DNA of 24,622 nucleotides from a virus. Shown here piece after piece: positions 8,761 to 24,622 of this stretch. The translations under genes and the position numbers were made by a program. The notes below the pieces were generated by a model that had not been told where the DNA came from, searched no databases, and saw only the letters and a list, made by a program, of their open reading frames with translations. The stretch is from positions 1-24,622 of the IMG/VR virus record IMGVR_UViG_3300022542_000207; one strand, written 5' to 3'. Positions within the stretch are counted from its first letter, which is position 1. Every line of letters begins with the position of its first letter.

Positions 8761-11169
8761 ATGGCAAAAGAGGTAATTATAAATGTAAAAACAAAAGGAA
8801 CAAAAGCAGCAGTAAAAGATATTGATAATTTAAATGATTCGATAGGAGAAACTAACGATGAATTGAAAGAAGTTGAATCTAACGCAGATGCTATTGGTGA
8901 TAGTTTAGGTAAAGCTGGAAAGGATGGGCAGAAAGGATTAGGACTTTTAGGTAAAGGCTTCAAAGGTGTAGGAGGTGCGATTAAAGGAATGGGTATTGGT
9001 GTGTTGATTGGTCTATTTGTAATATTGAAAGAAACATTAGAAAGACAACAACCTGTTTTAGATTTGATTGACACGACATTTAATGCTATTGGTATAGCTG
9101 TATCAACTGTATCAGATACATTTAAAACTATTTTTGATAGAGTAACAGAAACAACAGAAAATTTTGATGCTCTTGGTAAAGTTTTTTCAAGTGTAGGTAC
9201 AATTATAAAGAATTTGGTGATGTTAGCATTTACACCTTTGAGGTTGATGTTGTTAGCATTACAAACAGATTTTGCTGTATTGAAAGTGGCATATGAATCA
9301 GCATTTGGAGATGAAAAATCATTACAATTAGCAAAAGATAATCTTGCTGGGATGAAAGACGAAGCAATTAAACTGAAAGATAGTTTGGTGGAAAGTGGAA
9401 AAGCTATTTTAGATGCTGGGAAGACTATTGCTGAAAATGCGGTTGAAGCAATGGAAGAAACTAAAAACATAGCTAAAGTAGTAGAAGAAGAGTTTGATAA
9501 AATAGATACAAAAAAGATATTACGAGATGCAGAAGAAACTACGAGATTGAAGAATATGGCAATATTGAAGAAAGCTGAAAATGAATTAGCTTTAATTACT
9601 GCTGCAAGAGATGCTGAAATTCAAAGAGAAATTAGAGACGATGTTACAAAAACATTTGAAGAAAGAAAATTAGCAAGTGAGAAATTAAAAGTTATAATTG
9701 ACGAACAAGAGAAATTAACAATGGCTAATGCTAAGTTAGTAGTAGATGCAGCAGAAGCAGAATTGACTACTAATAGGTCAAGTATTGAATTGCAAGAGAA
9801 ATTAATTCTTGCTAAAAAAGAATTAATTGATGCAGAAGAAACAGCTATTGGTTTTAGAACAGAACAAAGAGAACAATTAAGAGCTTTAAATCAAGAAGAA
9901 ATTGATTCTATTAATAATATAATTGATAGACAAACAGAATCTGCTTTAAAATTCGAAGAATCAGAATTGAAGAAAGTTCAAATAGTTGTTGATGCTAATA
10001 AGATGAAAGTGCAATCATATATCGATGCTGGTGATGAAGAATCGGAAGCATATAACCAAGCTGTTCAAGATTTAGAAGCAGCAGAAGATGATAAATTAGT
10101 TGCTATTGAAAAAGCTAATAAAGAAGCAATCAAAATAGTTCAAGAATTACAACAAGATTCAATGGCTAAACAAATCCAAGCTATTAAAGATAACGAAGCT
10201 TTGAAATTAAAAATTTTAAAAGATAGTAAAAAATTAAGTGCTGAAGAATTAGCCGATTTAGAAGAACAATTAGCTAAAGATACACAGAAAAAAATAGATA
10301 AAGTTGTTAAAGATGCTAATAAAGAACGAATCCAAGCTACATTGGATGCTGTTGCATCTGCTGTAAATAAAGCAGGTCAATTAGCTAATGCTATAACAGA
10401 TATTTTCCAACAAATCCAAGATCAACAAACACAAGCAATGGAAGAACAAATTGCTGAAAGAAATGAGTTAATAACAGAAGATTTTGATAACCAAAGAATA
10501 AATTTAGAAGAAAGTCATATTAATGCTATTGGATCTTTAGAAGCAAAAGCCGCAAGAGAATTAGCAATCACTGGTGCTGTTAGTATAGCTACTCAAAATC
10601 AAATCATTGATGAAAATAATAATAAATTAAAAGCAGATTTCACATTAGCGCAAGCAGAATTTGAAATACAGAAAAAAGCTGAAAAAGATGCTAATGATTT
10701 AAGAGAAGAAGCTTTTAATAAACAAAAGACATTATCTTTAGCGCAAGCAGCAATTTCAACAGCATTAGCAGTTGTGAATGCTTTAGCTACTACACCATAT
10801 CCATTAGGTGTGGGGTTAGCAATTGCTGCAGGTGTTGCAGGTGGAATACAAATTGCAGCAATTAGTTCTACACAATTTTCACCAGAATCTACTTCATTAT
10901 CAGCACCTACAATGCCGAAATTAGCAGCGAATATTCAACCTGCTGATCAAACAAATTCATTAGGGTTGTCAGGTGCAGGATCAACAGGTGCTTTATCAGC
11001 AGATGCACAATTTAATAAACAAGAATTGTTTGGAGTTGGATCTGAAAGTGTTGGTGGTGGCGCAGGATCAAGACAAGGATCTTTGAAAGTTTCTGTATTA
11101 GAAAGTGATATAACATCAACACAAGCAACAGTTTCTACAATAGAAAGTGGTGCTGAATTTGGTGGATAA
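8761..11169 (+). CDS. tail tape measure protein
   Basis: An 802-residue, strongly helical protein with the expected plan of a tape measure. It has a charged N-terminus, a Gly-rich hydrophobic segment at about 60-90 (GKGFKGVGGAIKGMGIGVLIG), another hydrophobic helix near 155-170, and long coiled-coil stretches rich in Ala, Glu and Lys (about 215-480 and 555-655). Near the end is a Gly/Ala-rich hydrophobic region (AISTALAVVNALATTPYPLG then VGLAIAAGVAGGIQIAAISS). Tape measures set tail length during assembly and are ejected with the DNA. With about 0.15 nm per residue, 802 residues would give a tail of roughly 120 nm (inference). It implies a long-tailed phage, most simply a siphovirus since no sheath gene is seen. 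Confidence 0.9.
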   Translation: MAKEVIINVKTKGTKAAVKDIDNLNDSIGETNDELKEVESNADAIGDSLGKAGKDGQKGLGLLGKGFKGVGGAIKGMGIGVLIGLFVILKETLERQQPVLDLIDTTFNAIGIAVSTVSDTFKTIFDRVTETTENFDALGKVFSSVGTIIKNLVMLAFTPLRLMLLALQTDFAVLKVAYESAFGDEKSLQLAKDNLAGMKDEAIKLKDSLVESGKAILDAGKTIAENAVEAMEETKNIAKVVEEEFDKIDTKKILRDAEETTRLKNMAILKKAENELALITAARDAEIQREIRDDVTKTFEERKLASEKLKVIIDEQEKLTMANAKLVVDAAEAELTTNRSSIELQEKLILAKKELIDAEETAIGFRTEQREQLRALNQEEIDSINNIIDRQTESALKFEESELKKVQIVVDANKMKVQSYIDAGDEESEAYNQAVQDLEAAEDDKLVAIEKANKEAIKIVQELQQDSMAKQIQAIKDNEALKLKILKDSKKLSAEELADLEEQLAKDTQKKIDKVVKDANKERIQATLDAVASAVNKAGQLANAITDIFQQIQDQQTQAMEEQIAERNELITEDFDNQRINLEESHINAIGSLEAKAARELAITGAVSIATQNQIIDENNNKLKADFTLAQAEFEIQKKAEKDANDLREEAFNKQKTLSLAQAAISTALAVVNALATTPYPLGVGLAIAAGVAGGIQIAAISSTQFSPESTSLSAPTMPKLAANIQPADQTNSLGLSGAGSTGALSADAQFNKQELFGVGSESVGGGAGSRQGSLKVSVLESDITSTQATVSTIESGAEFGG

Positions 11170-17096: not shown

Positions 17097-17460
17097 AATA
17101 TACGCAATTAGGAGATATATGACATTAGAAGAAATGTTAGATGATGAATTTGGTGAAATATATTATATCGGGAAAACGAATAAAGATGAATTATATGAGA
17201 GATTAAATCAACATAGAGTTGATAAAACATTTACAGTTAAGACTGAATGGTTGAAAAATAATAAACATGAAATTATTTTGATTGAAGATGATTTAGAAGA
17301 TTGGGAGGTAGTAGAAAGAGAGCAGTACTGGATAACATATTTTGGAACTCATTTAAAACTGAATAGGATACGAGCCAAGAAAGTAAATGTTAAAGATGGT
17401 ATAGATGCTATGAAAAGAGCCAAACAAATAATAAAAGATATGAAAAAAGCTAACAATTAA
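17080..17460 (+). CDS. GIY-YIG nuclease domain protein
   Basis: A 126-residue protein. KIYAI (6-10) and YYIG (28-31) form the GIY-YIG pair, with Arg41 in LYERLNQH, a Glu in VVEREQYWITYF (79-88) and Asn95 in HLKLN at the other conserved places. The whole core is present, so it may be an active single-domain endonuclease; no DNA-binding module follows except a basic helical tail (MKRAKQIIKDMKKANN). It overlaps the end of the holin-like gene by 17 bases; ATGs at 17044 and 17068 would overlap more. It may be a free-standing homing-type enzyme or take part in phage DNA processing. Confidence 0.75.
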   Translation: MEKTNKIYAIRRYMTLEEMLDDEFGEIYYIGKTNKDELYERLNQHRVDKTFTVKTEWLKNNKHEIILIEDDLEDWEVVEREQYWITYFGTHLKLNRIRAKKVNVKDGIDAMKRAKQIIKDMKKANN

Positions 17461-17473
17461 TTGTTAGCTTTTT
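17444..17473. terminator. bidirectional terminator between converging gene blocks
   Basis: A perfect palindrome: AAAAAGCTAACAA (17444-17456), loop TTAA, TTGTTAGCTTTTT (17461-17473). Each strand ends in a T tract. The stop codons of both the GIY-YIG gene (17458-17460) and the acetyltransferase gene (17464-17466 on the - strand) lie inside it, so it closes both the late rightward and early leftward transcripts. Confidence 0.9.
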
Positions 17474-20361: not shown

Positions 20362-20381
20362 AATCTTAGTTTGTTTTATAG

Positions 20382-20422
20382 TATATATTAAATACTTATA
20401 GTTCTCTTTAGAAATATATTAA
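20382..20422 (-). promoter_or_regulatory. early promoter-like element (B), 41-bp repeat copy 1
   Basis: Identical over 41 bases to 20822-20862. On the - strand it begins with the stop codon of the upstream gene (TTAATATATTTC), then AAAGAGAACTATAAGTATTT and AATATATA, and lies 21 bases before the ATG at 20361. Its position before gene starts and its likeness to elements A, D, E and F argue for a promoter. Confidence 0.6.
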
Positions 20423-20805: not shown

Positions 20806-20821
20806 AATTATTATTTTATTT

Positions 20822-20862
20822 TATATATTAAATACTTATAGTTCTCTTTAGAAATATATTAA
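20822..20862 (-). promoter_or_regulatory. early promoter-like element (C), 41-bp repeat copy 2
   Basis: Second copy of the 41-bp repeat, 17 bases before the ATG at 20805. On the - strand its first TAA is the stop codon of the helicase gene, as copy 1 supplies the stop of the 128-residue gene. Confidence 0.6.
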
Positions 20863-22337
20863 GGATGTTTTATTTTTTTACTTTCTAATATTTCTAAAAT
20901 AGATACCCCACCATTTGATATATTACTTGTTGCGTAATTATCATATACTTCTTGTTTGATTTTAACTAAGCTTCTATTTGAATGAGCATTAGTATAATAG
21001 ACATCTCTTTTATATTCTATTGTTGGAATATTTAAAACTGTTTTACATTTCTTTCTTTTAGATTGTGTTGAAGATTTAATCAACGCTTTTGTAACACCGT
21101 CTTGATCATTCTTATTAAATTCCATATCAACATCAACACTATCTTTCAACATAGTTAATACATCAGCAGATGATAACCAACATTCTACTCCATTATAATC
21201 TAATATTTCTGTTTCTAAAAGATTGATAGCTAATACATCTTTAGTTTTAAAGTTAGTCTTAACAACATACTCTCTGTTCTCCATTTCTAAATGATCCCAC
21301 AATTCTAAGAATAATACATTACCACCTGTTATTAATAAATGATATTGTTCTGACCATATCTTATCATAATCTATACCAGCGAATACTGAATCAAAATTAT
21401 TTTTCTCTTCATTATAGTTTCTTAATTTTTTATCTTGTAAATCAAATACTAAAAATCTTCTATTCTTAACATCATTACCATATATGAATTGATTATCATT
21501 AGTAGAGAATATCATTATTGATCTTGATAGTTTCTTTATATCATTGTTCCCACCTTTTGGTTTGATTTTAAAATCTTCTAATGATGTCATGTTCTTAAAT
21601 TGATTATGAGCTTTCTCTCCGATTCCAGATTCTTCGATAAATGTAACACAATAATCTGCTAACTTATCTTTGAATTTCCATTCGTCTTCATCTAACTTTG
21701 CATTCTCATTCATTAGATTAGCTTTCTTGAAACTACCAAATAATTCTTTTGTAATAAACTCAGTCTTACCTGTTCCTTCTAAACTTTTAAACACTGCTAC
21801 ATTCTCAGCTTTACCACCCAATCCTTTCTTCACTACACTAAACAATAAAGTTTTCATTTTCTTTTCATTCATATTAGTATCACCTTTACAATACTTAACA
21901 AATTGTTTTACAAATTTATCAGTTTCGCTCATAGCTTCTAAATCTTTTTTATCATAATTAAAATATAAACTATTAAAGAAATCTTTACTTGTATCAATTT
22001 CATTAGGTCTTCCTATTAGATTTAATGCGCTCTTCCAAGAAGTTTTATTAATTCCAAAACCTGCGCAATGTTTTGTTGGTACATTAGCTTTAACTATTGT
22101 AACCATACCAGATGATGAATGTTTATCTTCTTTGTTATATTCAAAATTAATTTCCCAATCACTATAATTAACATATTCATCAGAAACCTTTTCATCTCCT
22201 TTCTCCCATAAATCTCCTGGTATCTTATTATAAAAGCTATTTGAATATTTACAAAATCCTACTTGTATCTCTTTTTCTTCTAAGAAGTCTTTAATAATAT
22301 TTGTTGTCTTTGTGCTGTTTTTGTTATAAGTTTTCAT
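20859..22337 (-). CDS. replicative helicase, SF3/VapE-type ATPase
   Basis: A 492-residue protein. The ATPase core shows Walker A SLEGTGKT (185-192), Walker B DYCVTFIEESG (228-238), a sensor/motif C segment SIMIFSTND (273-281, Asn280) and an arginine-finger-like KNRRFLVFDL (291-300). This is the arrangement of virulence-associated-E and related phage/plasmid superfamily 3 helicases. The N-terminal 150 residues are of unknown role and may contact primase or origin. The C-terminal 130 residues may be a winged-helix type region. It would unwind DNA at the phage origin as a hexamer. The upstream gene encodes the primase, and the origin-like repeats lie 1.5 kb away. Confidence 0.8.
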   Translation of the reverse strand: MKTYNKNSTKTTNIIKDFLEEKEIQVGFCKYSNSFYNKIPGDLWEKGDEKVSDEYVNYSDWEINFEYNKEDKHSSSGMVTIVKANVPTKHCAGFGINKTSWKSALNLIGRPNEIDTSKDFFNSLYFNYDKKDLEAMSETDKFVKQFVKYCKGDTNMNEKKMKTLLFSVVKKGLGGKAENVAVFKSLEGTGKTEFITKELFGSFKKANLMNENAKLDEDEWKFKDKLADYCVTFIEESGIGEKAHNQFKNMTSLEDFKIKPKGGNNDIKKLSRSIMIFSTNDNQFIYGNDVKNRRFLVFDLQDKKLRNYNEEKNNFDSVFAGIDYDKIWSEQYHLLITGGNVLFLELWDHLEMENREYVVKTNFKTKDVLAINLLETEILDYNGVECWLSSADVLTMLKDSVDVDMEFNKNDQDGVTKALIKSSTQSKRKKCKTVLNIPTIEYKRDVYYTNAHSNRSLVKIKQEVYDNYATSNISNGGVSILEILESKKIKHP

Positions 22338-22403: not shown

Positions 22404-23432
22404 TTAATAATTTTGGATAATTCTTTTATATCCAGTTACTCCTTTTTCTTTACACATATGGAAAAAGCTTCCTATGGTTGTTCTTGCACACATTCCATTA
22501 CCTCCCCATTGTCCAATCAAAGTTTTAAATTCAACATCTAATTGGTATTTATTATTGTTACCAGATTTCGTAACCCAAATTTCATCAGTCTTATTAACCT
22601 CTCCTAATTTCATAAATCTTTTAAATAGCTGATATGCTTCTTGTTGAGAAATCTTCTCGTCTTTAAGAATACTCGCAAACCCAAATCCATATCTCATTAG
22701 ATCATATCTCTCTAAAGCTATTGGTAAATCCAACACTTCTAAACTTTTTAATGAGTTGTCTATTCTTTCATAAGTATTATCATAAGTCTTATTCTCTCCA
22801 TCATTAGAGAAATGTGGTTTAGATGATGCTCGTAATTCATCCATAGTATAATAATCAGAAGGTATGAATCTTAGGTATTCATTCTCTTCGTGGATTTTAA
22901 TTAACCCAATGAAACATAATCTATTTAAATCATTTGATGATAAATCTAATTTAATATCAATGTTTAATGTATTATTAATTTTAGATAACATCCTCGATCC
23001 GAAATTCTTATATAATAGTTTTAGATTAGATTGTGTGATACTATCTTCTTCGAACCTAAAGAATAACTTTACACCTCTTCTACTTGGAGAGATCATTACG
23101 ATATTACATATCTCAGCCGAAAATCTTACGATCTTTTTTAAGTCTTCTAAAGATAAAGAATCTATATCATATACTAAATATCCAGAACTGATGAACTCAC
23201 CCTCTAAATGATTCCCAATATTATGAGTGTTTATACAATTTAACTTATCTTTGCGACTCTTATATAATGAAGAAGCTTCGGGGTTACCCCCCAATTCTTC
23301 TAATTTTAATCTTGCGCATATATCTAAGTCATCTTTCTTTGGTTTAATATCCTTGATATTTACCATCTCCCAATTATCTATACCTCTCTTTAAACTTCTT
23401 TGATACATATTGGTGTAGTATTTAAAATTCAT
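22404..23432 (-). CDS. DNA primase, VirE-N/BT4734-like (AEP-type)
   Basis: A 342-residue protein. The N-terminal half has GYLVYDIDS (84-92) with a D-x-D type pair, ISPSRRGVKLFFRF (114-127) and LDLSSNDLNRLCFIGL (162-177), the pattern of the BT4734-like VirE N-terminal domain, related to archaeo-eukaryotic primases. The C-terminal half (IALERYDLMRYGFGFASILK, EAYQLFKRFMKLGE, then ARTTIGSFFHMCKEKGV) resembles primase C-terminal (PriCT-2-like) regions that join primase to helicase. It would make primers for replication. It lies directly before the SF3-type helicase on the same strand, forming a split primase-helicase pair. Confidence 0.75.
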   Translation of the reverse strand: MNFKYYTNMYQRSLKRGIDNWEMVNIKDIKPKKDDLDICARLKLEELGGNPEASSLYKSRKDKLNCINTHNIGNHLEGEFISSGYLVYDIDSLSLEDLKKIVRFSAEICNIVMISPSRRGVKLFFRFEEDSITQSNLKLLYKNFGSRMLSKINNTLNIDIKLDLSSNDLNRLCFIGLIKIHEENEYLRFIPSDYYTMDELRASSKPHFSNDGENKTYDNTYERIDNSLKSLEVLDLPIALERYDLMRYGFGFASILKDEKISQQEAYQLFKRFMKLGEVNKTDEIWVTKSGNNNKYQLDVEFKTLIGQWGGNGMCARTTIGSFFHMCKEKGVTGYKRIIQNY

Positions 23433-23437
23433 AATAA

Positions 23438-23626
23438 TTAATCTATTTTCTTAATTGCTTCTTTCCAGTCAATACCATTCTTCTCAAAATGTTCTACTAT
23501 TAAGTCTTGTAAAATATTATTATAACTTACATGTTTATAATCTTCTTCTTTTACCAAAAGTTTTTTAAGCTTCAAAAGTTTTAAAACATGTTTGGTTGTT
23601 TTCATAATTGTTTCTTCTTGTTTCAT
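23438..23626 (-). CDS. small protein, possible ribbon-helix-helix regulator
   Basis: A 62-residue basic protein, first gene of the leftward block. KHVLKLLKLKKLLVKEEDYK and then HVSYNNILQDLIVEHFEKNG resemble the strand-helix-helix layout of small ribbon-helix-helix proteins (SY..IL..LI in the second helix), so a DNA-binding regulator is possible. Two in-frame ATGs, at 23626 and 23605, both have the context GAAACAATTATGAAA or CAAACAATTATGAAA; the second would give 55 residues. It starts next to the origin-like region and 5 bases before the primase gene, so it may control replication or early transcription (inference). Confidence 0.55.
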   Translation of the reverse strand: MKQEETIMKTTKHVLKLLKLKKLLVKEEDYKHVSYNNILQDLIVEHFEKNGIDWKEAIKKID

Positions 23627-23675: not shown

Positions 23676-23788
23676 TTATACTATTATATAAAAATATATT
23701 AATTATGTCCTCGTCTTCCGTGTCTATTTTGGACATGGACACAAGGAAATCGATGTCTCTGATCAATGGGCTGAGAAAAAAAAGAGAA

Positions 23789-24005
23789 ATGTCCTTATGT
23801 CCTTATGTCCTTGTCTAAAGCAAACCCCTATAGAGATATAGTATGTATAGTCTTATACCCTTTTTGTACTATATAATATAAAATATATAAATATATAAGG
23901 ACATAAGGACATACCCTTTAAAAGCTTTGATTGGATACAAACAAACAAGAAAATTTGATGTCCTTGTCTCAGAGACATACGGATAAGATAAGGACATAAG
24001 GACAT
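23789..24005. repeat. iteron-like array of ATGTCCTT
   Basis: Eight exact copies: three tandem forward (23789, 23797, 23805), two tandem reverse (23897, 23905), one forward (23958), two tandem reverse (23990, 23998). Partial copies lie at 23705 (ATGTCC) and 23731 (GGACAT). The copy at 23958 is followed by the small palindrome GTCTC-A-GAGAC (23966-23976). Confidence 0.9.
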
Positions 24006-24145: not shown

Positions 24146-24176
24146 AAAAGCTACTGAACTCTCGGTAGCTTTTTTT
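24146..24176 (+). terminator. rho-independent terminator with no gene upstream
   Basis: AAAAGCTACTGA (24146-24157), loop ACTC, TCGGTAGCTTTT (24162-24173), then further T to 24176; 12 bp with one G:T pair. On the + strand no coding gene precedes it for more than 500 bases. On the other strand the T tract is shorter. Confidence 0.8.
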
Positions 24177-24239
24177 GATTATAAGCTTTTATCTTAAAAA
24201 TATCCAAAGATTTTAAGATAAAAGCTTATAATCAAAAAA
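24171..24239. repeat. perfect 29-bp inverted repeat
   Basis: Arm 1 is 24171-24199 and arm 2 is 24211-24239, fully complementary, with an 11-base loop (ATATCCAAAGA). Arms include TTGATTATAAGC and TTTTATCTTAAAA. Both ends are followed by A-rich, not T-rich, sequence on the transcribed side, so it is not a standard terminator. TATCCAAA of the loop recurs just after arm 2 (24241-24248). Confidence 0.95.
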
Positions 24240-24297: not shown

Positions 24298-24618
24298 ATG
24301 ATAGCACAAACAAAACACAAAACAAAAAACTCAGAATCATTAACTAACTATAAGAAGTATTTCTATAGTAACAGATCTAAAATTTCTTACAAGAGTTATA
24401 AGATGATAAATGGTGTATGTGTTAAGATCTTAAATGATTTCTTAACATCAAGAGAATTATCTTTACTAATCGATTTAAAAGAACATACTATGTTCATAGG
24501 AGAACTATACAAACAGATCAAAGAGAATTTCAAGGATGAAGAGTATCTAACAGAGATTAAAGATAAGTTCCAATACTATAAGGAATGGATTTTGGACCAA
24601 TCAGATATGAAGGTGTAA
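24298..24618 (+). CDS. hypothetical early protein (106 aa)
   Basis: A 106-residue, basic, helical protein of unknown function. The first 40 residues are rich in Lys, Ser and Tyr (NYKKYFYSNRSKISYKSYKM), then come FLTSRELSLLIDLKEHTMFI and an acidic-basic helix (KQIKENFKDEEYLTEIKDKF). It starts in the house context AAATAACAATTATGATAG after promoter-like element F. It is the only rightward gene of the right part and probably begins another early unit that continues beyond the window. Helical content and position next to the origin would suit a small regulator, but no motif supports this. Confidence 0.6.
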   Translation: MIAQTKHKTKNSESLTNYKKYFYSNRSKISYKSYKMINGVCVKILNDFLTSRELSLLIDLKEHTMFIGELYKQIKENFKDEEYLTEIKDKFQYYKEWILDQSDMKV

Positions 24619-24622
24619 GGTA

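Follow-up and report, generated by a model that had tools for sequence, protein, structure and literature searches.

In PICI origins, two sets of short iterons flank an AT-rich segment and lie beside the genes for a primase and an initiator helicase (PMC6092414). SaPI Rep and Cch2 bind their iterons via a C-terminal domain; SCCmec Cch2, which does not belong to a phage, is a self-loading helicase whose C-terminal domain binds short direct repeats, only three AAGTG iterons being present (PMC7581432). In the annotation of P4, ori and crr carry 8-bp type 1 repeats (GGTGAACA) that are clustered in both orientations and spaced 9-11 bp; P4 has two such sites, with ori in a divergent intergenic region, and its alpha primase-helicase is one fused protein. 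Phage genes annotated as virulence-associated protein E are still taken as virulence factors, e.g., in phi18:1 (PMC11946311).

Here we analyze a window of 24,622 bases, the whole of an IMG/VR phage record. An array of 8-base repeats near its right end is highly likely, on the strength of sequence comparison, to be the phage replication origin, of the iteron type and used by a self-loading VapE/SF3 initiator helicase. The array resembles the PICI/SaPI Rep-ori arrangement in having iteron sets on either side of an AT-rich segment and in its place by the primase and helicase genes, and P4 in its 8-bp repeats in both orientations and its divergent intergenic location. Unlike the PICI origins, which lie 3' of rep, it is found on the 5' side of the operon and has contiguous 8-bp units, and its repeat letters are not those of P4; the genome around it has its own portal, terminase, tail and tape-measure genes and, among the G001 genes tested, no recognized integrase, and is therefore not that of a satellite. 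To our knowledge, hardly any origins have been mapped in Bacteroidota phages.

Layout of the repeat array

An exact search found eight copies of the octamer ATGTCCTT in the window, all inside 23789-24005 (plus strand: 23789, 23797, 23805 and 23958; minus strand: 23897, 23905, 23990 and 23998), and no exact copy in the rest of it, which confirms the order given in the original prediction (forward three times, reverse twice, forward once, reverse twice). The elements are:

23705-24005, no strand: iteron array, proposed replication origin, with 11 TGTCC/GGACA cores, eight of them full ATGTCCTT
23706-23741, no strand: three degenerate cores from the core search (TGTCC at 23706; GGACA at 23731 and 23737)
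23789-23812, plus strand: left set of three adjoining ATGTCCTT with an 8-base step, exact copies in the 8-bp paired plan
23811-23898, no strand: spacer of 88 bp, 78% AT (genome 72%), proposed as the melting segment
23897-23912, minus strand: right set of two adjoining inverted octamers with an 8-base step, exact copies in the paired plan
23958-23965, plus strand: lone octamer, an exact copy, facing the next inverted pair
23990-24005, minus strand: outer set of two adjoining inverted octamers with an 8-base step, exact copies

The lone octamer and the outer inverted pair are able to form a 12-bp stem. The partial copies noticed earlier at 23705 and 23731 are real (ATGTCCTC and GGACA cores, respectively), and a further one, AAGGAAAT, lies at 23743. 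Cores number 11 in 23706-24004 versus 30 across the window. In 60 Markov shuffles, the highest 8-mer count per 301 bases was five, or three for 8-mers with at least three G/C, versus eight observed, and the claim of a density beyond chance stands. A short-repeat scan of G001, a longer (30,474 bases), near-identical record with 25 differences over the 24,622 shared positions, ranks the array first by score; its sequence holds one extra ATGTCCTT, within a gene, and the octamer thus reaches no similar density elsewhere. Most of the differences between the two records (24 of 25) fall in 134 bases, 125-258, of a repeat-bearing tail-like gene, for which recombination, variation and misassembly are the candidate readings.

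The sets of the array have opposite orientations around the 88-bp spacer, whose AT enrichment is modest. The segment 23835-23896, singled out at first as very AT-rich, is indeed 84% AT; it is not outstanding in a genome of 72% AT, where more than ten other 62-base segments exceed it, and AT-richness alone is therefore not diagnostic. No exact DnaA box (TTWTNCACA) occurs in or near the array, which thus lacks the mark of a DnaA-box origin. Cumulative GC skew, suggested as a check, is compatible with an origin and confounded with gene direction: its sign switches where gene direction does, so that it provides no independent evidence. The skew maximum, at 17419, lies close to a 30-base sequence equal to its own reverse complement (17444-17473), where two gene blocks converge.

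Genes beside the array

The array sits in a 671-bp intergenic region between a leftward operon of three genes and a rightward gene:

20859-22337, minus strand: VapE-type SF3 helicase, proposed initiator (PF05272, E 2.8e-13)
22404-23432, minus strand: primase of the BT4734-like/VirE-N kind (PF08800; DID and SPSRRGVK motifs)
23438-23626, minus strand: 62-aa protein encoded at the head of the leftward operon, possible DNA-binding regulator (homologues in L137 and L138)
24298-24618, plus strand: 106-aa protein of unassigned function, divergent neighbour (homologue in G402, 61%)

The two Pfam matches bear out the primase and SF3-type helicase recognized earlier to the left of the array. The helicase contains the SF3 motifs EGTGKT (Walker A), FIEE (Walker B), STND and NRR; its C-terminal region aligns by eye with those of related helicases, and a PDB search returned no match and hence no homology of this region to a known DNA-binding domain. 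The 62-aa protein has no significant Pfam or PDB match. AlphaFold models made without an alignment reached pLDDT values of 30 for the helicase and 56 for the 24298 protein and were not used. Among the G001 genes tested, none was recognized as encoding an integrase, a repressor or a DNA polymerase, which makes the combination of an initiator helicase with the host polymerase plausible.

Two further features touch the operon. NCBIfam NF040562 (CRISPR-associated primase-polymerase type B) matches the primase weakly (E 7e-10), falling far short of the cut-off. A 52-bp direct repeat is 94% identical between its copies at 20371-20422 and 20811-20862, one of which overlaps the helicase gene at its 3' end.

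Conservation in related phages

A primase alignment search of IMG/VR identified two relatives, G402 (L137) and G403 (L138). Single-protein scans returned G001 only or no match, a two-sequence helicase alignment search found no relatives, and a helicase search in 395 genomes of the phylum gave no match, an uninformative result. G402 is broadly collinear with the phage, its helicase and primase being 62 and 56% identical. G403 is more distant (helicase 41%, primase within 41-45% identity), and by tblastn at E<=1e-4 its primase and helicase match G001 and no other gene does. Because G403 has the array nevertheless, the array appears to travel with the replication genes.

Both relatives carry the array upstream of the small gene, primase and helicase, as in the phage, with drifted repeat units, ATATCCTT in L137 and ATGTTTTC in L138. 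The small protein is 62 aa long and 68% identical in L137, and 57 aa long and 40% identical in L138. The L137 array consists of ATATCCTTATATCCTTATATCCTT, 77 bp at 78% AT and then inverted and degenerate copies; the L138 array of ATGTTTTCATGTTTTC, 74 bp at 80% AT and then GAAAACATGAAAAC. All three loci have the 8-base step and an inverted second set beyond 74-88 bp of AT-rich DNA. Absence of the repeats from relatives that keep the genes had been named as grounds for abandoning the origin reading; both relatives keep the array in the same place and with the same step, in changed letters, and the comparison supports that reading. We observe directly the repeats, their spacing and orientation, their conservation with drifted sequence and their co-occurrence with the primase-helicase module; position, step and inversion kept despite the drift of the letters constitute the strongest evidence that the array has a function and goes with the replication genes.

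Two structures adjoin the array in the phage. An inverted repeat, perfect over 29 bp and with a loop of 11 bases, occupies 24171-24239, for which Rfam offers only plant and animal miRNA models, below threshold, and a strong terminator-like hairpin on the plus strand, at 24146-24177 upstream of gene 24298, implies a short untranslated transcript from the array region. In L137, only 66 bp separate the gene from the first octamer and the corresponding region has no such palindrome; the palindrome and the terminator are thus outside the conserved unit.

A model for initiation

The iteron binder is probably the VapE-type helicase. By analogy with SaPI Rep and Cch2 (PMC7581432), its C-terminus is a likelier contact than the N-terminus put forward in the original prediction. 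Two other proteins had been put forward as well. The 62-aa product of gene 23438, kept in both relatives, is still a rival binder, less likely than the helicase; the 24298 protein is a poor candidate, since no match to it was detected in G403 even though the array is kept there; the short right end of G403, on the other hand, leaves little room for such a gene.

Helicase subunits would bind adjacent octamers at 8-bp intervals, probably via the C-terminal region, in opposite orientations on both flanks of the 88-bp AT-rich segment. Two helicase rings would then form, melt this segment and travel apart in opposite directions, with the neighbouring primase making primers and the host polymerase copying the DNA. 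Since the array lies between the leftward operon and the rightward 24298 gene, its binding may also regulate both promoters. Origin function, like the identity of the binder, melting and bidirectionality, is what we infer, and several features count against it: the array is 5' of the operon here versus 3' of the helicase in most relatives, no second array being seen 3' of the phage helicase; the spacer is only modestly AT-richer than the genome; and, as described below, the strict paired plan is degenerate in L137 and nine of 20 other elements have no top-ranked array by the helicase.

Arrays beside other VapE-type helicases

We looked for dense short repeats in 20 other elements with PF05272-type helicases, drawn from tblastn lists; by choice, this set omits Staphylococcus phages and APSE-1, and P4 was added as a known case. 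The top-scoring array lies at most 700 bp 3' of the helicase gene in 11 of them (mumin9-1, lotta8-1, SW6, PLE2, FPSV-D3, phi18:1, Dina, Jacinda, NatCom_6392, NatCom_43249 and, with crr, P4) versus about 1.2 expected, with a P of about 1e-9 that is only indicative, as the 700-bp limit was chosen after the data were seen. The remaining nine have no top-ranked array beside the helicase.

A strict plan, two direct 6-mers and an inverted pair with the same step, 50-130 bp apart, occurs at a single place each in G001, SW6, mumin9-1, lotta8-1 and FPSV-D3, in every case the step is 8 bp and the helicase gene adjoins the place or is close by; the plan is absent from 200 shuffles of G001 and from 200 of lotta8-1. 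G403 has it at the array and, with a 9-bp step, in one coding repeat; it is degenerate in L137, and has steps of 9 and 12 bp in Jacinda and Dina. The Flavobacterium phages lotta8-1, FPSV-D3 and mumin9-1 and the Streptococcus phage SW6 are thus like our phage in having paired cores with a step of exactly 8 bp, the pairs being inverted over 74-123 bp of AT-rich DNA, and unlike it in the letters of the cores (GGAACA, GTTACA, GGTAAC) and in the position of the arrays, 3' of the helicase. In mumin9-1 the array is one gene further on from the helicase, and primase and helicase are a single protein. Cellulophaga phage phi38:2 carries CATACAA pairs with a 9-bp step upstream of a leftward operon (L120 43250-43900), a possible further origin of the VapE-helicase iteron kind.

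The chances appear evenly balanced that the small protein, primase, VapE-type helicase and origin form a portable cassette which moves between otherwise unrelated phages, with an origin set by geometry and not by sequence: paired units with an 8-bp step that face opposite ways across an AT-rich segment of 70-125 bp, the unit drifting with the helicase. If so, the plan seen in PICI origins would not be their hallmark but an origin type general to phages of Bacteroidota and Bacillota. Constant spacing with changing repeat letters would make such start sites findable by geometry, and the comparison gives a testable rule by which they could be located from sequence alone. Natural initiator/iteron pairs with drifted specificity would aid in learning DNA recognition by this helicase family, and replicons for Flavobacterium and Bacteroides relatives are a possible use.

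Alternative functions of the array

Ribbon-helix-helix regulators use contiguous direct and inverted short sites, and the octamers resemble such targets. The array could accordingly be mainly an operator instead of an origin, with the 62-aa protein forming a cooperative filament on contiguous octamers and governing the divergent promoters. We regard this as unlikely: the array does lie in the divergent intergenic region immediately upstream of the 62-aa gene, and that protein is kept alongside it in L137 and L138, but the protein is without a family match, two sets around a spacer are an origin plan, and in other VapE-helicase phages the 8-bp double-pair plan is located 3' of the helicase rather than at a promoter of this sort. 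An operator role and origin function may also coexist.

The proximity of the array to the genome end raises the question of packaging. The window and G001 have the same final base, and the last bases of the window recur at the start of G001:

24616-24622, no strand: TAAGGTA, identical to positions 1-7 of G001, probable cohesive end of a linear genome (end comparison)

Direct repeats are thus found at both ends of G001 (TAAGGTA) and of G403 (CTGTAATAC), with chance probabilities of about 2e-4 and 1e-5, respectively, for terminal matches that long; on this basis, each record is probably a complete linear genome, with cohesive ends of 7 and 9 bases, respectively. The array is 0.3-0.9 kb from the record end in both, as a terminase recognition site near a cohesive end might be. 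Such a packaging site is nonetheless very unlikely, given that G403 keeps the array and the replication genes while its terminase and all others lack a match (tblastn, E<=1e-4), and that in other phages such arrays adjoin the helicase.

It is extremely unlikely that the array is a dispersed intergenic repeat of the host type with no phage function. About 30 of 51 loci with ATAAGGACATAAGGACAT among 84,980 species searched are in Bacteroidales, mostly intergenic on reading, and in one genome the 16-mer is present 17 times and the reversed control is absent; that genome, however, is the only one among 395 sampled from across the phylum to have the 16-mer, and in the phage relatives the unit varies at constant position and step, which fits co-evolution with a binder rather than acquisition of a host repeat. 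Some Bacteroidales chromosomes (L039-L086; G002, G003, G004, G005 and others) contain many dispersed octamer repeats ATAAGGACAT(AAGGACAT), mostly intergenic, with the variants AAGAACAT and AAAGACAT and several as hairpins, which perhaps share the octamer with the phage by coincidence. An attP with integrase arm sites is scarcely credible: short direct and inverted repeats mark such sites too, as in the P4 annotation, but no integrase was recognized among the G001 genes tested.

Scanning IMG/VR for the exact octamer yielded G001; the remaining hits were mainly coding or unrelated 16-mers, apart from the end of L021, a GC-rich (60%) viral contig, where nine tandem copies of ATGTCCTT occupy 9120-9191.
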